DNA from: Streptomyces venezuelae
GTDB lineage: Bacteria; Actinomycetota; Actinomycetes; Streptomycetales; Streptomycetaceae
DNA: 64,000 bases
Assembly: GCF_008642315.1 (NCBI RefSeq)
Contig: NZ_CP029192.1
Span: 4,216,001-4,280,000 of the forward strand
Reading direction: 5' to 3'
Within the stretch, counting starts at the first letter, position 1. Each line of letters starts with the position of its first letter. Both the position numbers and the translations under genes were made by a program. The notes beneath the pieces are model-generated. The model saw only the letters and a program-made list of their open reading frames with translations, did no database searches and was not told the DNA's origin. Of the stretch, positions 37,884 through 49,950 are shown piece by piece.

Positions 37884-38942
37884 TCAACCGGCGGTGAACT
37901 CCCCGGCCACCAGCTCCGCGATCTGCGCCGTGTTCAGCGCGGCGCCCTTGCGCAGGTTGTCCCCGCACACGAAGAGCTCCAGCGCGGTGGGGTCGTCCAG
38001 CGACCGCCGGACCCGCCCCACCCAGGTCGGGTCGGTACCCACGACGTCCGCCGGGGTGGGGAACTCCCCCGCGGCCGGGTTGTCGAAGAGCACGACGCCC
38101 GGCGCGGTCGCGAGGATCTCGCGGGCCCGGTCGACGGTGACCTCGTCCTCGAAGCGCGCGTGGACGGTCAGGGAGTGGGTCGTCACGACGGGCACGCGCA
38201 CGCACGTGGCGGCGACGCGAAGTCCCGGGAGTCCGAGGATCTTCCGCGACTCGTCCCGGACCTTCATCTCCTCCGACGACCAGCCGTCGTCCTTGAGGGA
38301 CCCGGCCCACGGCACGACGTTCAGCGCGACGGGCTCGGGGAAGGGCCCGGTGTCGTCGCCGACGGCCCGGCGCACATCGCCGGGGCTGGTCCCCAGCTCG
38401 CTGCCCGCGACCAGCTTCAGCTGCCGCCGCAACGTGTCCACGCCGTCCCGGCCCGCCCCGCTCACCGCTTGGTACGAGGAGACGATCAGCTCGCGCAGAC
38501 CGAACTCGGCGTGCAGGGCACCGACGGCGACGATCATCGAGAGCGTCGTGCAGTTCGGGTTGGCGACGATGCCGCGCGGCCGCACGCGCGCGGCGTGCGG
38601 GTTGACCTCGGGGACGACCAGCGGGACGTCCGGGTCCATCCGGAAGGCGGCGGAGTTGTCGACCACGACGACGCCCTTGGCGGCGGCGACGGGCGCCCAC
38701 TGCGCGGACACCTCGTCGGGTACGTCGAACATGGCGACGTCGACCCCGTCGAAGGCGTCCTCGGAGAGGGCGACGACCTCGATCTCCTCCCCGCGCACGG
38801 CCAGCTTCTTGCCGGCCGAGCGCGGAGAGGCGACGAGTCGGATCTCGCCCCAGATGTCGGCGTGCTGCGACAGGATCTGGAGCATGACGGTGCCGACGGC
38901 CCCGGTCGCTCCGACGACCGCGAGCGTCGGCTTACGGCTCAT
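37884..38942 (-). CDS. asd: Aspartate-semialdehyde dehydrogenase
   Basis: A 352-residue enzyme that reduces aspartyl phosphate to the semialdehyde for Lys, DAP, Met, Thr and Ile. NADP motif GATGAVG (residues 11-17), catalytic Cys131 in ANPNCTT, substrate loop [10 protein letters not shown] and [13 protein letters not shown]. Overlaps the aspartokinase stop by ATGA, giving the usual ask-asd operon. Full length for the family. Confidence 0.96.
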
Positions 38943-40210
38943 CGGCCGGTGCCTCCATAGACCACGGCCTCGTCCGTGTCGGAGTCGAGCCCGAAGGCGG
39001 TGTGCACGGCGCGGACGGCCTCGGTCACGTCGTCGGCGCGCGTGACGACCGAGATGCGGATCTCGGAGGTCGAGATGAGCTCGATGTTCACGCCCGAGTC
39101 GCTGAGCGCCTCGAAGAAGGTCGCGGTGACGCCGGGATTGGTCTTCATCCCCGCCCCGACGAGCGAGATCTTCGCGATCTGGTCGTCGTAACGAAGCGAG
39201 TCGAAGCCGACGGCCGCGCGGGTCTTCTCCAGGGCGTCGATGGCCTTGCGGCCCTCGTCCTTGGGAAGGGTGAAGGAGATGTCGGTCAGGCCCGTCGAGG
39301 CGGCCGACACGTTCTGCACGACCATGTCGATGTTGACCTCGGCGTCCGCGATCGCGCGGAAGATCGACGCGGCCTCGCCCGGCTTGTCGGGGACGCCGAC
39401 GACCGTGATCTTGGCCTCGGAGGTGTCGTGCGCGACACCGGAGATGATGGCCTGCTCCACCTTGCGGTCCCCTTGCGGTTCGTTGCTGACCCACGTGCCC
39501 TGCAGTCCGCTGAAGGACGAGCGGACGTGGATCGGGATGTTGTAGCGACGCGCGTACTCCACACAGCGGTGGAGGAGCACCTTGGAGCCGGAGCTCGCGA
39601 GCTCCAGCATGTCCTCGAACGAGATCCAGTCGATCTTCCGGGCCTTCTTCACCACACGCGGGTCGGCGGTGAAGACACCGTCCACGTCCGTGTAGATCTC
39701 GCAGACCTCGGCGTCGAGAGCGGCGGCGAGGGCGACGGCGGTCGTGTCCGAGCCACCGCGCCCGAGGGTCGTGATGTTCTTCCCCTCCTGGCTGACGCCC
39801 TGGAACCCGGCGACGATGGCGATGTTGCCCTCGTCGACGGAGGTCCGGATGCGGCCCGGGGTGACATCGATGATCCGCGCTTTGTTGTGGACGGAGTCGG
39901 TGATGACGCCGGCCTGGCTGCCCGTGAACGACTGGGCCTCGTGGCCCAGGTTTTTGATCGCCATGGCCAGCAGGGCCATCGAAATCCGCTCACCAGCGGT
40001 CAGCAGCATGTCGAATTCGCGCCCGGCAGGGATCGGTGACACCTGCCCGGCAAGATCGATCAACTCATCCGTCGTGTCACCCATGGCGGACACCACGACA
40101 ACGACCTGATGGCCGTTCTTCTTGGCGTCGACAATCCTCTTGGCGACCCGCTTGATGCCTTCGGCATCGGCTACGGAGGAGCCTCCGTACTTCTGCACGA
40201 CAAGGCTCAC
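38939..40210 (-). CDS. lysC: Aspartokinase
   Basis: A 423-residue enzyme phosphorylating aspartate, the first step of the aspartate family pathway. N-terminal kinase domain: [51 protein letters not shown]. Two C-terminal ACT domains: [20 protein letters not shown] and [20 protein letters not shown], the feedback sites. GTG start preceded by GAGGAG. In related actinobacteria an internal start near [10 protein letters not shown] yields a separate beta subunit. Transcribed first in the ask-asd operon. Confidence 0.96.
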
Positions 40211-40341
40211 GTGCGCTCCTCGCTCAGTCCGTCTCTTACCGCACTACTGCGGTCGGCTCAGTCTAACGAGCGGCCGAAATTCGCCAGGTCGATATCACAT
40301 CGTGAGATGTCCCGCTCACGAGTTGATCACCCCGGCATACA

Positions 40342-40358
40342 CCCCCGCTTCTCGGGGG
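40342..40358 (-). terminator. Short GC hairpin between Uma2 gene and ask promoter
   Basis: CCCCCG-cttct-CGGGGG, a 6-bp stem about 95 nt past the Uma2 stop and upstream of ask. Upstream of ask there is also ACATC-gtga-GATGT (40297-40310), a weak operator candidate. Confidence 0.35.
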
Positions 40359-40451
40359 CATACGTTCCGACCGCTCGGCTTGGCACATGCCCAGCTCGGA
40401 GCGGAGCACTCCGGAAAGTGGGGTGGGTCACACGCTCCAGGCCCGGGGGCC

Positions 40452-41012
40452 TCAGCCGGTGTAGTTCTTGAGCTGCTCGGTGTGCAGAGTGATCGCTACC
40501 GGGGCGGGGAGCATGACCTCGGCGCCGTACGCGTACGCAGGGGCCTGCCGGTAGTCGCCGTCCAGCGGGTCGCTGTACACGGCCAGGGTGTCGCTGCCCC
40601 TGTCGATGAGGAGGTGGACGGGGACGCCCGCGCGGGCATACGCGTGACGATGGCCTTGGCCGCCGTCGCACGAAGTGACCTCGATGGTCATGAGGACACC
40701 CCCAGGGTCCGCCCACTCCCCCTGCCCGACGAAGGGTCCGATCGGAGCGAGCACTCCATCTGGTCTGGCCCTGCCCGCCAGGCGGCCCTCGATCGCCATT
40801 TCCTGCACGGAGTACAGACCGGGCTCGGGCCGCTGCTGCATGCACTGCCGCGTCAGCCACATGACGATCTCGCCGTGATTGCCGTCCCGCACGGGCCGGA
40901 CCTCCAACTTGCCGCCGATGAGTTCGAGCGTCACGGTCTCCGGCGCCCCGCGGGCGAGCTCCTCGAAGTCATCGGGTGCCATTTGCGGACGCCCTTCATC
41001 CGCGCGGGTCAC
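40452..41012 (-). CDS. Uma2-family (DUF820) putative endonuclease
   Basis: A 186-residue protein of the PD-(D/E)XK-like Uma2 group: FEELARGAPETVTLELIGGK, GNHGEIVMWLTRQC, RARPDGVLAPIG (conserved RPD), MTIEVTSCDGGQGHRHAYAR (E-V with following charged residues) and AGVPVHLLIDRGSDT. The family is abundant in Streptomyces and cyanobacteria, function unproven. The GTG start overlaps the upstream gene as GTGA. Confidence 0.88.
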   Translation of the reverse strand: MTRADEGRPQMAPDDFEELARGAPETVTLELIGGKLEVRPVRDGNHGEIVMWLTRQCMQQRPEPGLYSVQEMAIEGRLAGRARPDGVLAPIGPFVGQGEWADPGGVLMTIEVTSCDGGQGHRHAYARAGVPVHLLIDRGSDTLAVYSDPLDGDYRQAPAYAYGAEVMLPAPVAITLHTEQLKNYTG

Positions 41013-41989
41013 GGCGTCGCCCTCTTGAGGCCCGCTGCACGGCGCAGCGCGTCGACTCGTTCGGTGACGTCTGCCTGTGGCATCCGGCGAGGGGCGGGGA
41101 GGAAGGTCGCCGGGAGGGTCCCGGGCGCCTTCCCCGCCTCTTCCGGCACAAGCTCCGCGTAGCAGTCGGCGCACAGCCCCTTGATGAGCCGCGCGCCGGG
41201 CAGGTACTCCTCGCACATCGTGCACATCATCACGGCACGGTCGATGCGGGCCCGGACGGCAGGCGACGCGGAGAGCTTCGGAGGCATCTTCTTCTCCAAC
41301 CGCGTACGGGCGATCCCGCCCGGGTTGTGGACAGTGCCGGGAAGCCCGCAGGTCAGGGCGCGGACGATCTCAGGCACGGTTGCGCCCCGCGCCAGCCACT
41401 CGGCAGCGAGCGTTTCCAGCGCGCGGCAGTCGGCCTCGGAGAGGGACATGCGGGGATCCGTGGCGCGGAGACTCGCGAGAGCGCGGTACGCGGGGCTCTC
41501 CTCCGGCGCGGCGTCCGCCTGGGTCGAGTCCGTCGGCGCGGATCCGAACGTGGCTCCGGCGGCTGACGGATCTGCCTCCGGATCCGAGTCGGGGCCCCTG
41601 AGATGGGCAAGCCCTCCCTGGTAAGCGGGAGTTACGTCCCGACCATGCCTGCCCTCCACGAACTCGGTCCACCACTCCACCGACCTGGGCTTTCCCGACC
41701 AGTACGTCCTGGTCACCCAGCGCTTGGTGTTGTCCTCGGCGGTGATGTGCTCCTTGACCCAGCGGATGTGCCCAGCGAGGGACAGGCGCCCCATGGACGT
41801 CCGCACCGCCTGCTGACCGTAGTTGGGATGCTCGGACGCGACAGCTTTGTGCCCCATGGCGGCGCCTTCTTGAAGGTGGTGGAGGAACGTCCCGATCTCG
41901 CCGTCCCGTTGGCACACATGACCGAAATCGGCTTCGGTGTACGGAGATTCGTCATCCACGCAACGCTTCCCGTAGCCCGATTTGGCCAT
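41009..41989 (-). CDS. Helix-turn-helix replication/regulator-like protein with C-terminal Cys cluster
   Basis: About 326 residues. The N-terminal region (TFLHHLQEGAAMGHKAVASE, VRTSMGRLSLAGHIRWVKEH) is winged-helix-like. After an acidic Ala-rich linker the C-terminal part has LSEADCRALETLAAEWLARG, VPEIVRALTCGLPGTVHNPG and a CTMCEEYLPG...CADC zinc-finger-like end. This layout is common in Streptomyces proteins annotated as MarR-like HTH regulators of unknown role. Start uncertain between ATG 41989 and GTG 42037; no good ribosome site. Coupled to the Uma2 gene. Confidence 0.7.
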   Translation of the reverse strand: MAKSGYGKRCVDDESPYTEADFGHVCQRDGEIGTFLHHLQEGAAMGHKAVASEHPNYGQQAVRTSMGRLSLAGHIRWVKEHITAEDNTKRWVTRTYWSGKPRSVEWWTEFVEGRHGRDVTPAYQGGLAHLRGPDSDPEADPSAAGATFGSAPTDSTQADAAPEESPAYRALASLRATDPRMSLSEADCRALETLAAEWLARGATVPEIVRALTCGLPGTVHNPGGIARTRLEKKMPPKLSASPAVRARIDRAVMMCTMCEEYLPGARLIKGLCADCYAELVPEEAGKAPGTLPATFLPAPRRMPQADVTERVDALRRAAGLKRATP

Positions 41990-42160
41990 GGGATGAGCGG
42001 GGGACGGCAGGGCGGCATTAGGATGGCGGTAAGCCACGGTCGAAACTCGCGATCGATCGTAGGACCAGGCCTCGGATCCGGTGTTGGCGCACCGCCCGGG
42101 GCCGTTCTATTGCCGCGAACCTAGAGCGACTTTACGTTCCGCCGCAAGCTGACTACGGAA

Positions 42161-42233
42161 CGTCACCCTTGAGGGTGACGGAACCTGCAACTCCCCTTTT
42201 GGGCAGGTTGGTTGGGTTCATTTCACCGGTGAA
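42161..42233. promoter_or_regulatory. Two palindromes in intergene upstream of HTH/Uma2 operon
   Basis: CGTCACCCT-TG-AGGGTGACG (42161-42180) and TTCACC-GGTGAA (42222-42233). The second is flanked by GGGTT and AACCC and may be the DUF397 terminator; the first lies nearer the HTH gene and could be an operator or a hairpin. The 276-bp intergene holds no gene. Confidence 0.45.
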
Positions 42234-42265
42234 CCAAACCCAGTAAAGAGCTCGGGTCCCGGGGC

Positions 42266-42526
42266 TCAAGCTCCGGGCTGAACTGCGGCGATGAAGGCGG
42301 ACCACGCGGGGGCGGAGAGGGTGAGGATGGGGCTGACGGGGTCTTTTGAGTCGCGGACGTGGACCGCCTCAGGTGAGGTCGCGCCCACACCCCGGGAGAC
42401 CTCAAGGCAGTTGGCACCCTCGTCGTCGCTATAGCTGGACGTGCGCCAGTCGAGGGCAGCTTCAAGGCAGGCGTCCCCTTCGGGGCCGCTGTAGCTCGAC
42501 TTGAACCATTCCAGCTCGTCGCTCAC
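42266..42526 (-). CDS. DUF397 domain protein with duplicated motif
   Basis: An 86-residue protein with two copies of the DUF397 opening: WFKSSYSGPEGDACLEAALD and WRTSSYSDDEGANCLEVSRG, then VHVRDSKDP and SAPAWSAFIAAV. DUF397 proteins are almost always partnered with an Scr1-type XRE regulator, which here is the overlapping upstream gene (ATGA). In BldB/WhiJ-like systems they modulate the regulator. The tandem opening is less usual. Confidence 0.92.
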   Translation of the reverse strand: MSDELEWFKSSYSGPEGDACLEAALDWRTSSYSDDEGANCLEVSRGVGATSPEAVHVRDSKDPVSPILTLSAPAWSAFIAAVQPGA

Positions 42527-43317
42527 AGCTCGTCCACCATCTGCTCGATGAAGCGCACCGACCCCTCGCTGCCGAGGGACTCCGCGCGGATCACGCTAAG
42601 CCGCTCTGTGTACGAACTCACCACCTCGACGTCCGAAGTGAGCTGACTCACGGATGAGCCGTCCGCGTAGGCGAAGCGCTCGCGGTCCTGGGTTTCGAGC
42701 AGAACCATCTGCCCCATGAGCGCGGAGGACATGGCCCGCCCGTAGGGCAGGACCTGGATGGAGACGTTGTTGCGGCGCCCCATCTCCAGCAGGTGCAGCA
42801 GCTGGTCCTTGTCCACGTGCGGGCCACGCAGCACCGGCTCGTACAGGGCGAAGCTGAACGCCGTCATCGGCTTGCGGGTCAGGAGTTCCGTGCGCTCCAA
42901 CCGGCCCGTGACCCGTTCCTCGATGGTCTCGTCATCCAGCGGCGGTACGAAGGAGCTGATCAGCCTGCGGGCGTACGTCTCCGTCTGCAACAACCCAGGG
43001 ATCAGCACCACCTCGTACCACCACAAGCTCACTGCCTGCTGCTCGTACTCCATGAAGTCCTGAGCCCGCGGCGGGAACTTCTCCGCCTTCACGTAATCCT
43101 TGGCCGCACTCAGCAGCCCATCCGCCCCACACATCCCGTCGGCGACGTCCAACACGCGCCCCGTGGGCATCCGAACACCCTGCTCCATGGCCTTGATGGT
43201 GTCCGGCGCGTAATTGGAGGCAGCCCCCAGTTCCTCCCGGCTGACGTTCGCCTTCATGCGCCACCGCTTCAACTGGTTCCCGCTGTACCGCCAGGTCGGG
43301 TTGTACTGAACGGACAC
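42523..43317 (-). CDS. Scr1-family XRE transcriptional regulator (DUF5753)
   Basis: A 264-residue protein: N-terminal HTH (LKRWRMKANVSREELGAASN, YAPDTIKAMEQGVRMPTG) and the long C-terminal DUF5753 ligand-like domain (YEVVLIPGLLQTETYARRLI, MTAFSFALYEPVLRGPHVDK, DQLLHLLEMGRRNNVSIQVL). GGAGG precedes GTG 43317. Such regulators with a DUF397 partner (WhiJ-like) control differentiation or antibiotic genes. A GGATACAC/GTGTATCC palindrome lies 17 nt upstream, between it and the divergent gene. Confidence 0.93.
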   Translation of the reverse strand: MSVQYNPTWRYSGNQLKRWRMKANVSREELGAASNYAPDTIKAMEQGVRMPTGRVLDVADGMCGADGLLSAAKDYVKAEKFPPRAQDFMEYEQQAVSLWWYEVVLIPGLLQTETYARRLISSFVPPLDDETIEERVTGRLERTELLTRKPMTAFSFALYEPVLRGPHVDKDQLLHLLEMGRRNNVSIQVLPYGRAMSSALMGQMVLLETQDRERFAYADGSSVSQLTSDVEVVSSYTERLSVIRAESLGSEGSVRFIEQMVDEL

Positions 43318-43333
43318 AGCGACCACCTCCGTC

Positions 43334-43355
43334 GGATACACGGAGGCGTGTATCC
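43334..43355. promoter_or_regulatory. Operator candidate for Scr1-type regulator
   Basis: GGATACAC-N6-GTGTATCC, a perfect 8-bp inverted repeat in the 84-bp intergene of the divergent regulator and hypothetical gene. Confidence 0.55.
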
Positions 43356-43401
43356 CCTCAGTCACTACCGAGCGTAACTCCGTACGTACCAAGGTGTGAC
43401 C

Positions 43402-43815
43402 ATGACGAACGCAATTCACTGGCCGGAGTGGGTACCTCTGGCGGGCCACCATCTCCGCGTGTCCGGGGTCCACTTCGACGCCCTCCGTATCCAGGGCGTA
43501 CGAGGGGAACAGGTCGCCGCGCGACTCGTCGCCGAGGCGGACGGGAACGCGGGTCCCGTCATCTGCGAGGCGACGGGGTTCCGTTGGATGTACTTCCTCG
43601 TGGCCCCGGGAGCGGCGAAGGACCACAACTGGCCGCTGGGCGTACAGCGGTTCGGCGGGGCGGGGTGCCGGACGGTGACGTACATCGGTGTCCCGGCACT
43701 GGCCGGCAACACGTGGCCCCTGTTCTGGTACTCGGAACCGACACCGACGGCACCGTATGTCGTGCCGGGTCAGCTGCTCACGGCACTGGGCCCGGTCAGT
43801 CCGTCGGCTTCCTGA
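43402..43815 (+). CDS. Hypothetical protein divergent from Scr1-type regulator
   Basis: A 137-residue soluble protein: HWPEWVPLAGHHLRVSGVHF, VRGEQVAARLVAEADGNAGP, VICEATGFRWMYFLVAPGAA and VTYIGVPALAGNTWPLFWYS. Families with this pattern are common beside XRE/DUF397 genes in Streptomyces; no function known. AAGG precedes the ATG. The last 20 bp overlap the convergent trypsin-STAND gene. It has a distant look-alike at 63024-63545, also divergent from an XRE gene. Confidence 0.75.
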   Translation: MTNAIHWPEWVPLAGHHLRVSGVHFDALRIQGVRGEQVAARLVAEADGNAGPVICEATGFRWMYFLVAPGAAKDHNWPLGVQRFGGAGCRTVTYIGVPALAGNTWPLFWYSEPTPTAPYVVPGQLLTALGPVSPSAS

Positions 43816-46750
43816 ACTTCCAGTTCCGGGCTCGCGCGGCGGCCAGGTTCCGACGCACAAGCAGAGTCGTCGGATGATCCGGACTGAGCACGCGGACACA
43901 GTCAGCCAGCAGCTCGACATACAGCTCGACGGCGCTGCTCGTGCGACCACGGCTCTCGAGCGCCTGAGCCAGGTTGTTTCGTGAGACCAGCGTGTCCGGG
44001 TGATCTTCGCCCAGCACGCGCAGCCGGACGGTCAAGACCTCCTCGTACAGCCGGAGAGCACGCGAGACGTCATCCGAAAACTCCCACAGGAAGGCCAAGT
44101 TGTTCTGCGTGGTCAGGGTGTCCGGATGTTCCTCGCCCAACACTCTCAGCTGATCGGCCAAGTTCCCTTCGAACAGCAGACGCGCACGATCCGTCTGACC
44201 ATCACGCAAGTACGCATGTGCCAGGTTGTTGCGTGACGCCAGTGAATCGGGGTGCACCGCCCCCAACACCCGCGAGCGGTCGCTCCACACCTTTTCGAGC
44301 ATCGAGATCGAACGAGGCACGTCGCCCGCGTCCTTGTATGCGCTCGCGAGGTTGTGTCGTGACATAAGGGTGTCGGGGTGGTCCTCCCCCAGCACCCGCA
44401 ACCGGCCCGCCAAAGTCTTCTCGTACAACGCGATGGCTCGGTCGAGTTCTCCCACTGAACTGTACGCATAAGCCAAGTTGTTGCTCGACGACAGAGTCTG
44501 AGGGTGGTTTCCACCGAGCACGCGCTGCCTGTCCACCAATGTCTCTTCGTACAACGGGATCGCACGATGCAGGTCGCCCGCGGCCTCGTACACACATGCC
44601 AGGTTGTTCCGGGATGTCAGTGTATGTGGATGGTCCTTCCCGAGAATCTGTAACCGTTCGGCCAGCGTTTCCTCAAACAGAGGAATGGCACGGGACACAT
44701 CACCGGCTCTTTCATGCGCACTCGCCAGGTTGTTGCGCGCTGTCAGCGTGTCCAAGTGGCCCGTGCCCTTCAGGCGGAGCGATCCCTCCAAGTTGCGGCG
44801 CAGGAAGTCGATGGCTCTGAGAGGCTCTCCCTGCCCCTGAAGGTACAGCGCCACTTGGTTGAGGACGAACAGCGTGGAATCGTTGTCCTCGGCAGGCCTC
44901 CAGGCCGCCAATAGGGCTTCTGTGTGCGGCAGGAGGTGCCTCCATGTCGGCCAGCCGGCAACATTCTCGTCTGGGTCGTCGGGCAGCGCGCCACACAACC
45001 AAGCCGCGGCCTGGACGCGGGCTTCGTCGATGAGTTCCCTCCCGCGGTGCGGGTCGTCATCAGCCGGCGTGCGAGCCACCGTTTGGACCAGACGGTGAAC
45101 ACCGAGCGTCGACCGGTCGATGGTGATCATGTTGTAGTTGGCGAGCAGCGCCAGGAGCCCGGCCAGGTCTACGGGATTCTCCGCGAGTGGGGCGAAGAGG
45201 TCGCGGGGGATGCCCGTCGGCGCGTACCAGGCAGCGACGCGCAGGATCTCCACCGCACGCGGGTCCCGCTCGTGCAGGGCGTCCAACGTGATGCGCCAGA
45301 TCCGGGCCATCGTCCGCGTGGGATCCGAGCCCGCCGGCGCGGCGTCCGTGGTGTGTCTTGCGTATTCGCGGAGCATCTCGCGGTACTCCCCGATCGTGAT
45401 CGAGGTCTGCGCGATGAAGGCGCCCGCCTGCTCCAGGGCGAGGGGCAGGTGGCCAAGCTCCTCGGCGAGCGCGCGGGCCTCCTCCTCGTCACCGCCGTTC
45501 GTCAGGCGTGCGAGTAGGTCCAGGGAAGCTTCCGTGTCCAGTACCGGCAGTGGGAGGGGGTCTCCCGACCAGCCGCCTCCGCAACGGCTGGTAAGCAACT
45601 GCCGGCCCGCCGCGCGGAGTTGCCCCGTAACCGGCCGGACGTCCTCCGGCCTCTCCACGTTGTCGAAGACCAAGAGCCAGCCCGGGTGGGTCTGCAGCCA
45701 CCCGATGGCCCAGGAGGCCGCCTGCGCCGTGGCGAGGGCAGGAGCGCGACCACCTCTCAGCCGCGCCGCCAGCGCCGCCAGGCCCGCGTCGATCAGATCA
45801 GGCGTGTCCGCCCGGATCCACCACACCAGCCGGTACTCGTCCCGGTGGTCGTGGGCGTAGTGCAACGCCAGCGTCGTCTTCCCGACGCCGCCCAGGCCGT
45901 GCAACGTCTGCGTGATCGTCTGGGAGTCCTCGGACAGGGCTCGGCCCAGTGCGGCGAGTGCCTCGTCGCGGCCGACGAAGATCCGTGAGGGCAGGTCGGG
46001 GAGGTTGTGGATGCCGCGGGGGACCTCCACGTCGTACGCCGAGTGCGGCGGACCCGCGTCGGACGCCGCGCTGACGTCCTCCAGGACCAGGTCCCCGCCC
46101 GCCGCCTTCACCGCCATCGCGAAGCCGGGCCGCGCGGCAAGGGACGCCACGGACACGGCGGTGAGCTGATCCGCCTCATAGTCCCGGGCCCGGTCGGTCG
46201 TCACCACACCCACCAGCCGGCCCCGGGCGAACAGCGCCGCTCCGGACGTCCCGGACCAGCGCGACTTCCCGTCCGGCTTACTGGGGGCGGCGACCCTGTC
46301 CACGTACACCGTGATGCGCTCGCCACCCGACTTCAGCCCGGTCAGTGACTCGACGTGCCCCCGGATCTCCTTGGTGTCGCGAACACCGTCCCGCACCTCC
46401 GACCGCGGGAATCCGACCGCCAGGCACCCCAGCCGTTCCTCGACCACAGCAGCGTCGATGCGCCCCCACCGCACCGGGTCCATCCCGTCCGGCACCGTCC
46501 ACGCGCCGTCCGCCACCTGGATCAACGCGACATCCACCTCGGGGTCCTGCGCCCGCTCGGGCCACAGCAGCTCGGCAGTGGCCCACCGATCAGCTCCCGC
46601 CCCGGGGACGAGGCGTCGGACCTCCACCCGGCCCGTCGACCCCAGCACGTTGTGCAGCGCCGTCAACACGATCCGGTCCGCGACCAGATATCCGGTACCG
46701 GAACACCCCGCCCCCGGGTTCCAGATCTCCACGACCCGACGTACATCCAT
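43796..46750 (-). CDS. Trypsin-STAND NTPase (NB-ARC) with TPR repeats
   Basis: A 984-residue multidomain protein. Residues 1-215: S1-like protease with the triad His33 (LTALHNV), Asp73 (DVALIQV) and Ser169 (GTSGAALF). About 250-560: NB-ARC/STAND NTPase with FVGRDEALAAL, Walker A GLGGVGKTT (285-293), Walker B LLVFDNVE and GHLPLALEQAG. About 640-980: seven or so 42-residue TPRs of the RVLGEDHPDTLMSRHNLASAY type. STAND proteins oligomerise on ligand sensing through the repeats; here the output would be proteolysis. It follows the TRYPCO2 gene by 18 bp. It is probably a conflict or immune sensor. Confidence 0.9.
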   Translation of the reverse strand: MDVRRVVEIWNPGAGCSGTGYLVADRIVLTALHNVLGSTGRVEVRRLVPGAGADRWATAELLWPERAQDPEVDVALIQVADGAWTVPDGMDPVRWGRIDAAVVEERLGCLAVGFPRSEVRDGVRDTKEIRGHVESLTGLKSGGERITVYVDRVAAPSKPDGKSRWSGTSGAALFARGRLVGVVTTDRARDYEADQLTAVSVASLAARPGFAMAVKAAGGDLVLEDVSAASDAGPPHSAYDVEVPRGIHNLPDLPSRIFVGRDEALAALGRALSEDSQTITQTLHGLGGVGKTTLALHYAHDHRDEYRLVWWIRADTPDLIDAGLAALAARLRGGRAPALATAQAASWAIGWLQTHPGWLLVFDNVERPEDVRPVTGQLRAAGRQLLTSRCGGGWSGDPLPLPVLDTEASLDLLARLTNGGDEEEARALAEELGHLPLALEQAGAFIAQTSITIGEYREMLREYARHTTDAAPAGSDPTRTMARIWRITLDALHERDPRAVEILRVAAWYAPTGIPRDLFAPLAENPVDLAGLLALLANYNMITIDRSTLGVHRLVQTVARTPADDDPHRGRELIDEARVQAAAWLCGALPDDPDENVAGWPTWRHLLPHTEALLAAWRPAEDNDSTLFVLNQVALYLQGQGEPLRAIDFLRRNLEGSLRLKGTGHLDTLTARNNLASAHERAGDVSRAIPLFEETLAERLQILGKDHPHTLTSRNNLACVYEAAGDLHRAIPLYEETLVDRQRVLGGNHPQTLSSSNNLAYAYSSVGELDRAIALYEKTLAGRLRVLGEDHPDTLMSRHNLASAYKDAGDVPRSISMLEKVWSDRSRVLGAVHPDSLASRNNLAHAYLRDGQTDRARLLFEGNLADQLRVLGEEHPDTLTTQNNLAFLWEFSDDVSRALRLYEEVLTVRLRVLGEDHPDTLVSRNNLAQALESRGRTSSAVELYVELLADCVRVLSPDHPTTLLVRRNLAAARARNWKFRKPTD

Positions 46751-46768
46751 GACGTGACCGCCGTCGCC

Positions 46769-47083
46769 CTACCGAGGGCGCTCGTCCACGTCGTCGCCCA
46801 CCCGCGCGTCCTCACCCGTCGACGGGTCCACCGGCTGCAACGTCACCTTGAGCCGGTTCACCGTGCCCTTGGAGCGGGACGCCTTCGCCTCCGCGCCGAA
46901 GGGGAGGACGAGGACCTTCGCCCGTGCCTCGGCGTCCTTGCGGACGTCGACCGTGAACTCCAACTCGACGGGTCCCGTGCGGAATTGGAGGTCCTGACCC
47001 CGGCCTTCCTCGGCTGCCCGCCGCAGCTCCGCGCGCACCGCCCCGATCGCCTCGGCCAACCCCACCCAAGCGTCATCCGCCAT
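46769..47083 (-). CDS. TRYPCO2 (trypsin-co-occurring domain 2) protein
   Basis: A 104-residue protein: WVGLAEAIGAVRAELRRAAE, RGQDLQFRTGPVELEFTVDV, KVLVLPFGAEAK and TVNRLKVTLQP match the TRYPCO2 domain described with trypsin-like proteases in predicted NTP-dependent conflict systems. It is upstream of and co-directional with the trypsin-STAND gene. The partner role (substrate, adaptor or coupler of the protease) is predicted, not proven. C-terminal tail acidic. Confidence 0.85.
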   Translation of the reverse strand: MADDAWVGLAEAIGAVRAELRRAAEEGRGQDLQFRTGPVELEFTVDVRKDAEARAKVLVLPFGAEAKASRSKGTVNRLKVTLQPVDPSTGEDARVGDDVDERPR

Positions 47084-47253
47084 GGCCCCCGCCCCCTAGC
47101 GCAGTCGTGTGACTCAGCGTAGCGCCGGGTGTTCAACTGGGCTGCGGCTTCGGGGACTTCTGGTGGGCGAATGAACGGTGGACAGCGGCCCGAAGGCACG
47201 GCTGCGGACCCGGCAAGGGGGGAGAGACCCGGCAAGGGGACCCGAGGGCCGGT

Positions 47254-47913
47254 CTACTTGATCGTGCGCAGGCCCAGCGGTCCCGCGATCTCCTCCGCCA
47301 TGACCTTGCCCGCCTCCTCCTCCAGGCCGTCCGCGCCCAGGTCCTCGTCCGTGTCCAGGCCGTCCAGGTCGTCCAGGGGCTGGTTCAGGCGGACGTGGGC
47401 GACCAGGGACTGGAGGGCTCGGAGGGCGCCGGAGGCTGTGGAGCCCCAGTTGGAGAAGTAGGAGAACTGCCACCACCAGAGGGCCTCGGTCGTGCGGCCC
47501 GCGCGGTAGTGGGCCAGGCCGTGGGAGAGGTCGGCCACCACGTCCGCGAGGTCGTCCGAGATGCGGCAGGGGACGGGGGCCTTGCGGGGCTCGTAGGGGT
47601 CGAAGACCTCTGAGTAGACGTCGATCGGGTCCAGGAGGGAGGCCAGGCGTTCGCGGAGGTCGTCGACGTCCTGTTCCGGGCCCAGGTCCGGCTCGTAGCG
47701 CTCCTCGGGGACGATGTCCTCGTGCGCGCCGAGGCGGCCGCCGGCCAGGAGGAGCTGGGAGACCTCCAGGAGGAGGAAGGGGACCGCCGAGTCGGGCTCG
47801 TCGCCCTTCGCGACCTCCCTGACCGAGACGATGAAGCTCTCGATCTGGTCGGAGATCTGGACCGCGAAGTCGTCCGGGTTGTCGGTCACGGTGTTCAGCG
47901 TGGCGTCAGACAT
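47254..47913 (-). CDS. DUF5063 protein of the recR operon
   Basis: A 219-residue soluble helical protein ([80 protein letters not shown]). DUF5063 is found after recR in streptomycetes; function unknown. Overlaps the recR end by 8 bp. Confidence 0.85.
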
Positions 47914-48505
47914 CTAGGAGTCGTCTCCCCTCGAAGGCGCGGCCCAGGGTGACCTCGTCCGCGTATTCCAGATCTCCCCCGACAGGGAGTCCGCTGGCCA
48001 GGCGGGTGACCTTCAGGCCCATGGGCTTGATCATGCGCGCGAGGTACGTCGCCGTCGCCTCGCCCTCCAGGTTCGGGTCCGTGGCGAGGATCAGCTCCGT
48101 GACCGTGCCGTCGGCCAGGCGCGCGAGGAGTTCCCTTATGCGCAGGTCGTCCGGGCCCACGCCCTCGATCGGGCTGATCGCGCCGCCCAGGACGTGGTAC
48201 TTGCCCCGGAACTCGCGGGTCCGCTCGATCGCGACGACGTCCTTCGGTTCCTCCACGACGCAGATGACGGAGGGGTCCCGGCGCGGGTCCCGGCAGATGT
48301 TGCAGAGTTCCTCTTGCGCCACGTTCCCGCAGGTCGCGCAGAAGCGGACCTTGTCCTTCACCTCCAGGAGTGCGTGCGCGAGGCGCCGTACGTCCGTCGG
48401 CTCCGCCTGGAGGATGTGGAAGGCGATCCGCTGCGCGCTCTTGGGACCGACGCCGGGCAGCCTGCCCAGCTCGTCGATGAGGTCCTGAACCACGCCTTCG
48501 TACAC
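47906..48505 (-). CDS. recR: Recombination mediator protein RecR
   Basis: A 199-residue protein: N-terminal helix-hairpin-helix ([20 protein letters not shown]), a C4 zinc motif ([19 protein letters not shown]), Toprim domain ([40 protein letters not shown]) and Walker-B-like end. With RecF/RecO it loads RecA at gaps. The ybaB-recR-DUF5063 order on this strand is the standard streptomycete context. Confidence 0.97.
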
Positions 48506-48922: not shown

Positions 48923-49164
48923 GATCAGCTCCGTTTCGTACGGGTCCGTTTGTGCGGGTCCATCTGGCGGGGTTGCCGCCAAGAACGAGCCTACGTGGTC
49001 GGCGGGCGGGTCGCCCCAGCACTCTTTCGAGTGAGATCCAGCGTCCTCCTATACCTGATCAAGCAGCTCTTCCGGGCGGAAAAGCCGTGAATCCGGGCTC
49101 ATGGCCACCCATTGGGCGGTAGGAATTGGGGTCGATACGCGTGATCTCGTTGGAGGAGTGCCGG

Positions 49165-49950
49165 GTGAGCCAGCCTGAGATGCAGCCCGAGGGGGTGCCC
49201 CCCGAGACCCCCGAGGGGCAGGGGTCCGGGGGCTCGGGGGGCACCCCCTCGGGGGGCGTTCCCACGGGGGATTTGACCGGGCGTGCCTTCCCGCTCGGCG
49301 ACTGGGGCGACCCCGCCGGGCGGCTCGACGAGCTCTACCGCTGGGTGGAGCGGGGCGCCCTGAACACCGCCGAGTGGTACCTCACCGACCGCGGCAGGAA
49401 GCGGCGCGCGGCGCGCCTGCTGCGCGTGGGCGCCGCCCTGGGCGCCGTGGGCGCCGGAGTGCTGCCGCTGCTCGATCTGGCGCGTGCGGGGGGCGCGGGG
49501 ACCACCGGCGGTCTCGCCGGGTGGGGGTTCGTGTCGCTGCTCGTCGGGGTCGCCTGCGTGGGGTGCGACCGGTTCTTCGGGCTCACGTCCGGGTGGATGC
49601 GGGACGTGGCGACCGCGCAGGCCGTGCAGCGGCGGCTCCAGGTACTTCAATTCGACTGGGCTTCCGAAAGTGTGCGGGAAGTTCTCGGGCCCACCGAGGG
49701 GACCGCCGGGGAAGCCGCCGAGCGGTGCCTCGGGGTGCTGCGGAGGTTCACCGACGACATCACCGAGCTCGTGCGCGCGGAGACCTCCGACTGGATGGTC
49801 GAGTTCCGGGCCGGGCCCGTGCCGCTCGCCATGCAGGCGATCGTGCCGGGCGGGGCGCCGCGCGAGGCGCCCGCCTCCCCCGGACGGTTTCCGCTGCCGC
49901 CCGGGGCCCGGCCGAACATGCCGCGGCAGCGGCCGCCCGAGCCCCGGTGA
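49165..49950 (+). CDS. SLATT-domain protein
   Basis: A 261-residue protein. A disordered Pro/Gly N-tail (residues about 1-45) precedes the SLATT core: RLDELYRWVERGALNTAEWY, two membrane helices (about 82-105 and 112-135) and DRFFGLTSGWMRDVATAQAV, QRRLQVLQFDWASESVREVL. SLATT proteins are two-helix membrane effectors described with nucleotide-signalling conflict systems, though this homologue is found near recR in many streptomycetes and may be housekeeping. GGAGGAG precedes GTG 49165. Confidence 0.85.
   Translation: MSQPEMQPEGVPPETPEGQGSGGSGGTPSGGVPTGDLTGRAFPLGDWGDPAGRLDELYRWVERGALNTAEWYLTDRGRKRRAARLLRVGAALGAVGAGVLPLLDLARAGGAGTTGGLAGWGFVSLLVGVACVGCDRFFGLTSGWMRDVATAQAVQRRLQVLQFDWASESVREVLGPTEGTAGEAAERCLGVLRRFTDDITELVRAETSDWMVEFRAGPVPLAMQAIVPGGAPREAPASPGRFPLPPGARPNMPRQRPPEPR

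Follow-up and report, generated by a model that had tools for sequence, protein, structure and literature searches.

A Trypco2 gene paired with a predicted protease-NTPase-TPR receptor in Streptomyces venezuelae: a candidate two-gene conflict system with signs of receptor exchange

We analyzed a 64,000-nucleotide stretch of the Streptomyces venezuelae chromosome (NZ_CP029192.1, positions 4,216,001 to 4,280,000; hereafter "the window"), in which two adjacent genes encode a small Trypco2 protein and, directly downstream, a large receptor-like protein. The receptor joins a trypsin-like protease, an NTPase of the STAND class (signal transduction ATPases with numerous domains) and an array of tetratricopeptide repeats (TPRs). 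The genome is one 8.94-Mb contig and carries three Trypco2 genes, with a protease gene after each. The Trypco2 protein belongs to Pfam family PF19631 (residues 7-84, 83.1 bits; cut-off 24.2). At its N-terminus the receptor matches Trypsin (PF00089, 32.0 bits; cut-off 20.6) and Trypsin_2 (30.0 bits; cut-off 27.6), and TPR_10 matches in seven stretches (252 bits). The Pfam models NB-ARC (21.3 bits; cut-off 23.5) and AAA_16 (27.1 bits; cut-off 32.6) both score below cut-off, and the NCBIfam model NF040586 covers residues 257-976 with 482.5 bits (cut-off 300), which places the protein among the STAND-TPR proteins. This region contains GLGGVGKT at 285, LLVFDN at 359, TSR at 387 and GHLPLAL at 433, which we take to be the Walker A, Walker B, TSR and GLPLA-type motifs, respectively, and HRLVQ at 552.

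A preliminary description of this DNA had read an S1-like protease with an intact His33/Asp73/Ser169 triad, an NTPase with Walker A and B motifs, about seven 42-residue TPRs and a TRYPCO2 gene 18 bp upstream. This anatomy was borne out by the family matches and motifs, and the gap is exact. The triad columns are near-invariant among 62 related proteins (His in 61/62, Asp and Ser in 62/62), and the repeats number seven by Pfam and by pattern versus eight by a position-specific scan. Classical trypsin specificity depends on an Asp at the base of the S1 pocket, six residues before the catalytic Ser. At this position, which was located by alignment and not from a structure, Ser is found in the window receptor and in 42/62, and Asp in 3/62; by alignment, the receptor protease therefore lacks the hallmark of classical trypsin specificity. 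GC content at third codon positions is 0.83 in the receptor gene and 0.90 in the Trypco2 gene, compared to 0.90-0.97 in ybaB, recR, DUF5063 and the aspartokinase gene. Codon-position GC has a coding signature, and chance open reading frames (ORFs) are excluded for both genes.

The two genes lie in one frame with a single stop (TAG, TGA or TAA) between them in the window (46751-46771) and in nine relatives (L094, L168-L174 and L180; L numbers are our handles for loci). In the remaining relatives the pair is out of frame or has additional stops in between. This arrangement probably reflects shared descent, with readthrough as a possible alternative.

Table 1. Features of the gene pair and its core flanks (window coordinates)
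Feature	Position	Strand	Evidence and remarks
Trypco2 gene	46769..47083	-	ORF, ATG start, 104 aa; PF19631; first gene of the pair; ends Glu-Arg-Pro-Arg-COOH, tail conserved in branch
Intergenic gap, 18 nt	46751..46768	-	Flanking ORFs in one frame, single TAG stop between
Receptor gene, 984 aa: trypsin-like protease, NB-ARC/STAND NTPase, TPR array	43796..46750	-	ORF, ATG start
Protease domain, residues 1-225, triad His33/Asp73/Ser169	46076..46750	-	PF00089/PF13365; triad columns of 62 aligned pairs
NB-ARC-type NTPase, ~residues 240-480	45311..46033	-	NF040586; Walker A 285, Walker B 359, TSR 387, GLPLA-type 433 (presumed motifs); conserved columns
Remainder of STAND module, ~residues 481-632	44855..45310	-	NF040586 span; boundary is our own reading
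TPR array, 8 units of 42 residues (633-968)	43847..44854	-	Position-specific scan; TPR_10 x7
DUF5063 gene and recR, core flank marking the locus in relatives (context, outside the system)	47254..48505	-	
Aspartokinase gene (AA_kinase and ACT domains), core gene at the opposite side of the variable junction (context)	38939..40210	-	

Among 199 genomes of the genus, the protease domain was found in 95 and Trypco2 in 127. Both were present in 93, the protease only in 2, Trypco2 only in 34 and neither in 70 (Fisher test, 7e-25). The preliminary description had named a lack of co-conservation as grounds for dropping its proposal, and the opposite is seen in 93 of the 95 protease genomes. At the 30 best protease loci, Trypco2 lies immediately upstream on the same strand in 26, or in 28 when two loci with Trypco2 at the other end of the protease gene are counted; of the last two, one sits on a contig that ends ~1 kb upstream and the other has no Trypco2 within 11 kb. 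The 30 best Trypco2 loci gave a protease in 25 (on the same strand in 22/25; 3/25 weak, at 26-40 bits), and in 29/30 when wider stretches and weak matches (E up to 0.01) were admitted, two of the four added matches being weak (~19 bits). When named genomes were scanned with residues 1-480 of the window receptor and of three relatives as queries, Trypco2 was immediately upstream in 14/14 loci (13 Streptomyces, 1 Streptacidiphilus). As a control we took 29 loci of relatives to which the full protein aligned without its protease domain, in 26 over STAND and in 3 only further towards the C-terminus; within the at most 1.5 kb viewed per side, these had Trypco2 in 0/29 and a protease in 0/29.

The fetched loci yielded 64 pairs, of which 62 were complete enough to compare (L059 and L180 are incomplete); the Trypco2 alignment holds 61 of the 64 rows, leaving out L059, L064 and L180. 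The rows are not all independent: L095 and L174 (7736 bp each) probably represent one contig, and L096 and L177 (8,270,461 bp each) probably one genome. In the close pairs L078/L083, L081/L084 and L086/L090, amino-acid conservation is lowest in the protease domain, with Trypco2 and the C-terminal module both better conserved. Among the 62 pairs the C-terminal modules fall into 16 groups, stated here as ~15 because L067, counted as its own group, is too short to compare and many modules end at the limit of the fetched stretch. A single Trypco2-protease cassette bears ~15 groups of C-terminal module, which is a new finding. The protease cluster of the window alone (17 members) has four: NB-ARC-TPR in 12 members, a module showing, by eye, a Walker-like motif together with membrane segments in L097-L099, a short one without STAND or TPR in L178, and one without a Pfam match in L181. 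L178 resembles L175 and L176 across the protease and linker up to the start of the NTPase and has kept Trypco2, while its C-terminus is unrelated; no STAND remnant was found within its fetched 20.9 kb.

Mean Trypco2 identity was 0.72 where both protease and C-terminal module are alike (121 comparisons), 0.53 where the protease is alike and the C-terminal module unrelated (77 comparisons, 34 members) and 0.33 where neither is alike (1048 comparisons). Trypco2 identity also correlates with protease identity (Spearman 0.344; the maximum of 2000 permutations was 0.182). These comparisons support an assignment of Trypco2 to the protease and not to any single type of switch or sensor.

A C-terminal Arg-Pro-x-COOH is present in 17/17 Trypco2 proteins of the window's protease cluster and in 22/64 overall; elsewhere after residue 60, Arg-Pro occurs at 14/2401 positions (0.6%). 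That Trypco2 of this branch ends uniformly in Arg-Pro-x is a new observation. A docking or pseudosubstrate role for the tail is only a lead, and the idea of the tail as an uncleavable Arg-Pro plug was demoted to the same standing, since the S1 position of the protease does not appear trypsin-like. Only two columns of the Trypco2 alignment are invariant, Arg17 and Leu82, with six more conserved in at least 90% of the 61 sequences. No enzyme-like conserved residues are seen, so we think Trypco2 more likely to be a regulator or docking subunit than a pro-enzyme.

Eleven loci have the pair within 1 kb behind recR-DUF5063, namely 9 of the 14 named loci, the window and L094; five more divergent loci lie elsewhere. 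Two of the loci at this site, L094 (from a single-contig genome) and L172 (S. hokutonensis), differ at 22% of sites in the receptor gene (535/2397) and at 5-6% in Trypco2 (17/312) and both flanks (upstream 119/2096, downstream 130/2619). In 30-nt bins, the diverged stretch runs from ~50 nt into the receptor gene to ~30 nt beyond its stop. In 200-nt segments, identity is 0.83-0.99 over the upstream core genes, 0.92-0.95 over Trypco2, 0.69-0.82 over most of the receptor and 0.89-0.98 afterwards; three segments of the TPR part stand at 0.85-0.90, one of these three being mostly gap. Synonymous divergence (dS) is 0.17 for ybaB, recR and DUF5063 together (0.27 for DUF5063 alone), 0.19 for Trypco2, 0.66 for the protease, 0.77 for STAND, and 0.18 and 0.09 for the next two genes. 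Since it is synonymous divergence that is raised in the receptor, we read the pattern as replacement by a divergent allele and not merely as fast protein change. Comparisons of L173 and L174 with L094 agree (receptor dS 0.69-0.95, Trypco2 0.16-0.22); both belong with L172, and one exchange event is therefore counted. The two receptor alleles are 77-80% identical in protease and NTPase and stand beside Trypco2 proteins that are 94-99% identical. This points to an allelic exchange of the receptor gene between related species with Trypco2 staying in place, which is new.

The cassette of the window has a different history. Against eight complete relatives, dS is 0.67-1.21 for Trypco2 and 0.74-1.21 for the receptor, compared to 0.38-0.50 for the upstream core genes; it is also raised in the neighboring helix-turn-helix (HTH) gene (0.68-0.87) and not in the aspartokinase gene (0.42-0.53). 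Because the cassette, Trypco2 included, is more diverged than the core, it seems to have moved here as a whole unit. The receptors also vary in repeat number, with 4 to 15 TPR units in nine genes that have a stop codon, and mean identity is lowest in the TPRs (0.59-0.63; Trypco2 0.75, protease 0.69, NB-ARC 0.71; 12 proteins, three of them cut by contig ends). The best explanation of these patterns is that the receptor, while its locus stays fixed, becomes diverse through allelic exchange and changes in TPR number, the behavior expected of a recognition protein.

The junction between the DUF5063 and aspartokinase genes (window 40211-47253) was surveyed in 60 of 120 genomes with a DUF5063 match (mostly best matches, not a random sample) plus L094. 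Aspartokinase was in view in 56/61 and outside the fetched stretch in 5. The junction is a variable insertion point, measuring at most 544 bp in 32/56 and 1.2-10.1 kb in 24/56. Of 136 ORFs called, the 8 of L094 were left out; among the 128 remaining cargo ORFs, the 25 Pfam families listed, out of 65, are mainly two-component, SnoaL, SsgA, TauE, CDPS and P450 families, with Uma2, a putative endonuclease, in 5 and TPR_12 in 3. PADLOC matched PDC-S03 in 5, mad2 in 2, and SduA, PDC-S07 and CARF3 in 1 each. Because the cargo consists mainly of non-defence families and has few PADLOC matches, we dropped a reading of the junction as a defence island.

Some genomes carry what may be remnants of the cassette, and others an empty site. 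G105 (a genome whose DUF5063 is 97% identical to that of the window) has, in the interval from DUF5063 to the HTH gene, solely a TPR match of 45 residues, a possible relic of the cassette, and in G117 (DUF5063 93% identical) the site is empty, at 231 bp. At L179 (8446-9690), an IS110-family transposase gene lies within the protease gene and the STAND part is spread over two frames. Two other species (L126 and L127) have STAND-TPR genes in which no protease domain was detected, at the same site behind DUF5063.

In the window, the receptor gene is followed on the same strand by an HTH-DUF5753 gene and a gene without a Pfam family, and Trypco2 is preceded by DUF5063, recR and ybaB. A 342-aa gene without a Pfam match (41009-42037, minus strand) adjoins the HTH-DUF5753 gene in several species, whether the cassette is there or not. 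Past ybaB and ~2 kb from Trypco2 lies a gene for a SLATT_2 protein (49126-49950, plus strand; PF18183, 342 bits), a predicted effector family with two transmembrane segments.

The preliminary description had presented the pair as an undescribed system. In the accessible text of Kaur et al. (2020, PMC7159879), Trypco2 is named for adjoining trypsin-like domains in predicted NTP-dependent conflict systems, and the accessible part of PMC10907252 terms it an adapter domain. Since Trypco2-trypsin neighbors were named in 2020, this kind of predicted conflict system was already known; the evidence for the partner assignment and the receptor exchange is new. The main text of PMC8195603 has no occurrence of "trypco", and no experimental test of a Trypco2 system was recognized in the literature searched, supplementary data lying outside the search. 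The pair is like the MoxR-vWA-VMAP ternary conflict systems, said to prevail in multicellular prokaryotes (PMC7159879), in having a Trypco2 gene beside a trypsin-like domain and in being NTP-dependent. Unlike them, it is a two-gene unit with the protease fused directly to the NB-ARC-TPR receptor; Pfam matched no vWA, MoxR or VMAP family in ~15 ORFs scanned around the pair, so it does not class as a VMAP ternary system. A second parallel comes from Tuck et al. (2025, PMC12799240, as far as its text was accessible), namely the metallo-β-lactamase (MBL) nuclease-trypsin modules that occur in AVAST Avs1, Hachiman, Lamassu and DRT. In Hachiman and AVAST, a trypsin domain fused to an immune protein and an upstream partner gene form a proteolytic cascade within tested anti-phage machinery. 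Our pair shares with these modules the upstream partner gene, the N-terminal trypsin-like domain, a cassette recurring in unrelated systems and similar partner and protease trees. It differs in having Trypco2 as partner and NB-ARC-TPR as sensor, and it is known from sequence alone; the upstream gene matches Trypco2 only in Pfam, and no MBL-fold nuclease was found there.

Bacterial NLR-like (nucleotide-binding leucine-rich-repeat-like) proteins and the eukaryotic NLR and APAF1 receptors consist of an effector, an NTPase switch and superstructure-forming repeats. The receptor follows the same tripartite plan, with a fused S1 protease as effector and Trypco2 as separate partner. We hold with moderate confidence that the pair consists of an NLR-like protease receptor gated by NTP and of Trypco2, its dedicated small partner; a ligand, a target and an immune role can be proposed for the receptor. 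The C-terminal TPR array would bind a ligand, and the likeliest candidate is a protein that comes from an invader or from cells that are stressed or non-self. From what is known of the STAND family, the NB-ARC module would then swap its nucleotide and oligomerize. This would bring together and switch on the N-terminal protease domains, whose triad, like the Walker motifs, is intact. Trypco2, made from the gene immediately upstream, would be the protease's own partner, and growth arrest or cell death might follow once the protease cuts either Trypco2 itself or some target in the cell. For Trypco2 we give a regulator or adaptor role about an even chance, favoring a stoichiometric, non-catalytic regulator or docking subunit as yet unproven; a substrate or pro-effector role appears distinctly less probable, and some other role less probable again.

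Several observations weigh against this reading. Over all pairs, Trypco2 identity correlates equally with the C-terminal module (rho 0.345) as with the protease (0.344). The reverse case, protease unlike and C-terminal module alike, is a single comparison (Trypco2 identity 0.47), so the asymmetry between protease and C-terminal module is only partly tested. Among nine close loci at the recR-DUF5063 site, Trypco2 identity tracks that of the core genes (rho 0.81, p 0.0003) more closely than that of the receptor (rho 0.50, p 0.068; core identity versus receptor, rho 0.49, p 0.056), which indicates that at short range its sequence follows the chromosome and not the receptor. The closest cassettes occupy a single chromosomal site between core genes, and their co-cargo is mostly regulators and metabolism. 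The PADLOC match to Avs1b is weak (15.6 bits) and limited to the protease part, and the fused structure model (predicted local confidence, pLDDT, 47; predicted template-modeling score, pTM, 0.49) gave no usable complex structure. The immune or conflict role proposed in the preliminary description is consistent with the architecture, with the exchange of the receptor and with the decay of some copies, and finds no backing in the surrounding variable junction, which is poor in defence families; we retain it as a predicted role.

There are three other ways to account for the pair. Trypco2 could be the substrate, which the activated protease would cut to release a fragment that is active or toxic; the MBL nuclease-trypsin pairs in Hachiman and AVAST would be the model for this. 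Gene order and fusion logic are those of the tested systems (PMC12799240, accessible text), the partner is a separate small upstream gene, and Trypco2 and protease identities track each other. The few conserved columns of Trypco2 give no clear catalytic signature, however, and no toxin-like solved or folded relative was found with a model of modest quality; we regard this alternative as doubtful. Somewhat less probable in our view is a switch for development or stress in multicellular Streptomyces, in which the TPRs respond to a signal from inside the cell and a regulator is remodeled by the protease. Such a switch would suit the enrichment of Trypco2 in the genus (127/199) versus its rarity in a phylum sample of 296 genomes (in 4, 3 of them the same genus), and also the common site within 1 kb of DUF5063 in 11 loci, the window included. 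The patchy presence across species, the possible relic, the transposon-broken copy, the receptor-only exchange and the variation in TPR copies favor recognition over housekeeping.

The NCBIfam name of the STAND-TPR half suggests membership in an FxSxx-COOH peptide system, and AP-ATPases with TPRs adjoining such systems are described in PMC7159879 (accessible text). The receptor shares with these proteins (NF040586) a STAND-TPR half well above cut-off (482.5 bits versus 300) and differs in having an N-terminal protease instead of TIR. The sole FxsB maturase above cut-off in the genome (C1:714263) is ~3.5 Mb away, and no radical-SAM family matched among the window neighbors scanned. On the maturase distance we rejected the link, the precursor itself not having been searched for, and we consider membership very improbable. 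Within our preferred reading of an NTP-gated protease receptor, a more specific and rather unlikely version is a polymorphic locus resembling NLR or allorecognition loci. Trypco2 would stay constant, whole receptor alleles would be swapped by homologous exchange at the recR-DUF5063 site, the Arg-Pro-x tail might serve as a docking or pseudosubstrate lock, and the receptor might sense phage proteins or non-self hyphae.

Trypco domains were named from co-occurrence, and the comparisons made here would assign the partner of Trypco2 as the protease and not one kind of switch or sensor. They also describe a compact two-gene form of a predicted conflict system, without the ternary machinery, and add to the theme of immune sensors that acquire proteases from one another along with a dedicated partner gene. 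The two divergent receptor alleles beside closely similar Trypco2 proteins amount to a natural experiment, through which ligand recognition and the role of Trypco2 would be directly testable in laboratory Streptomyces.

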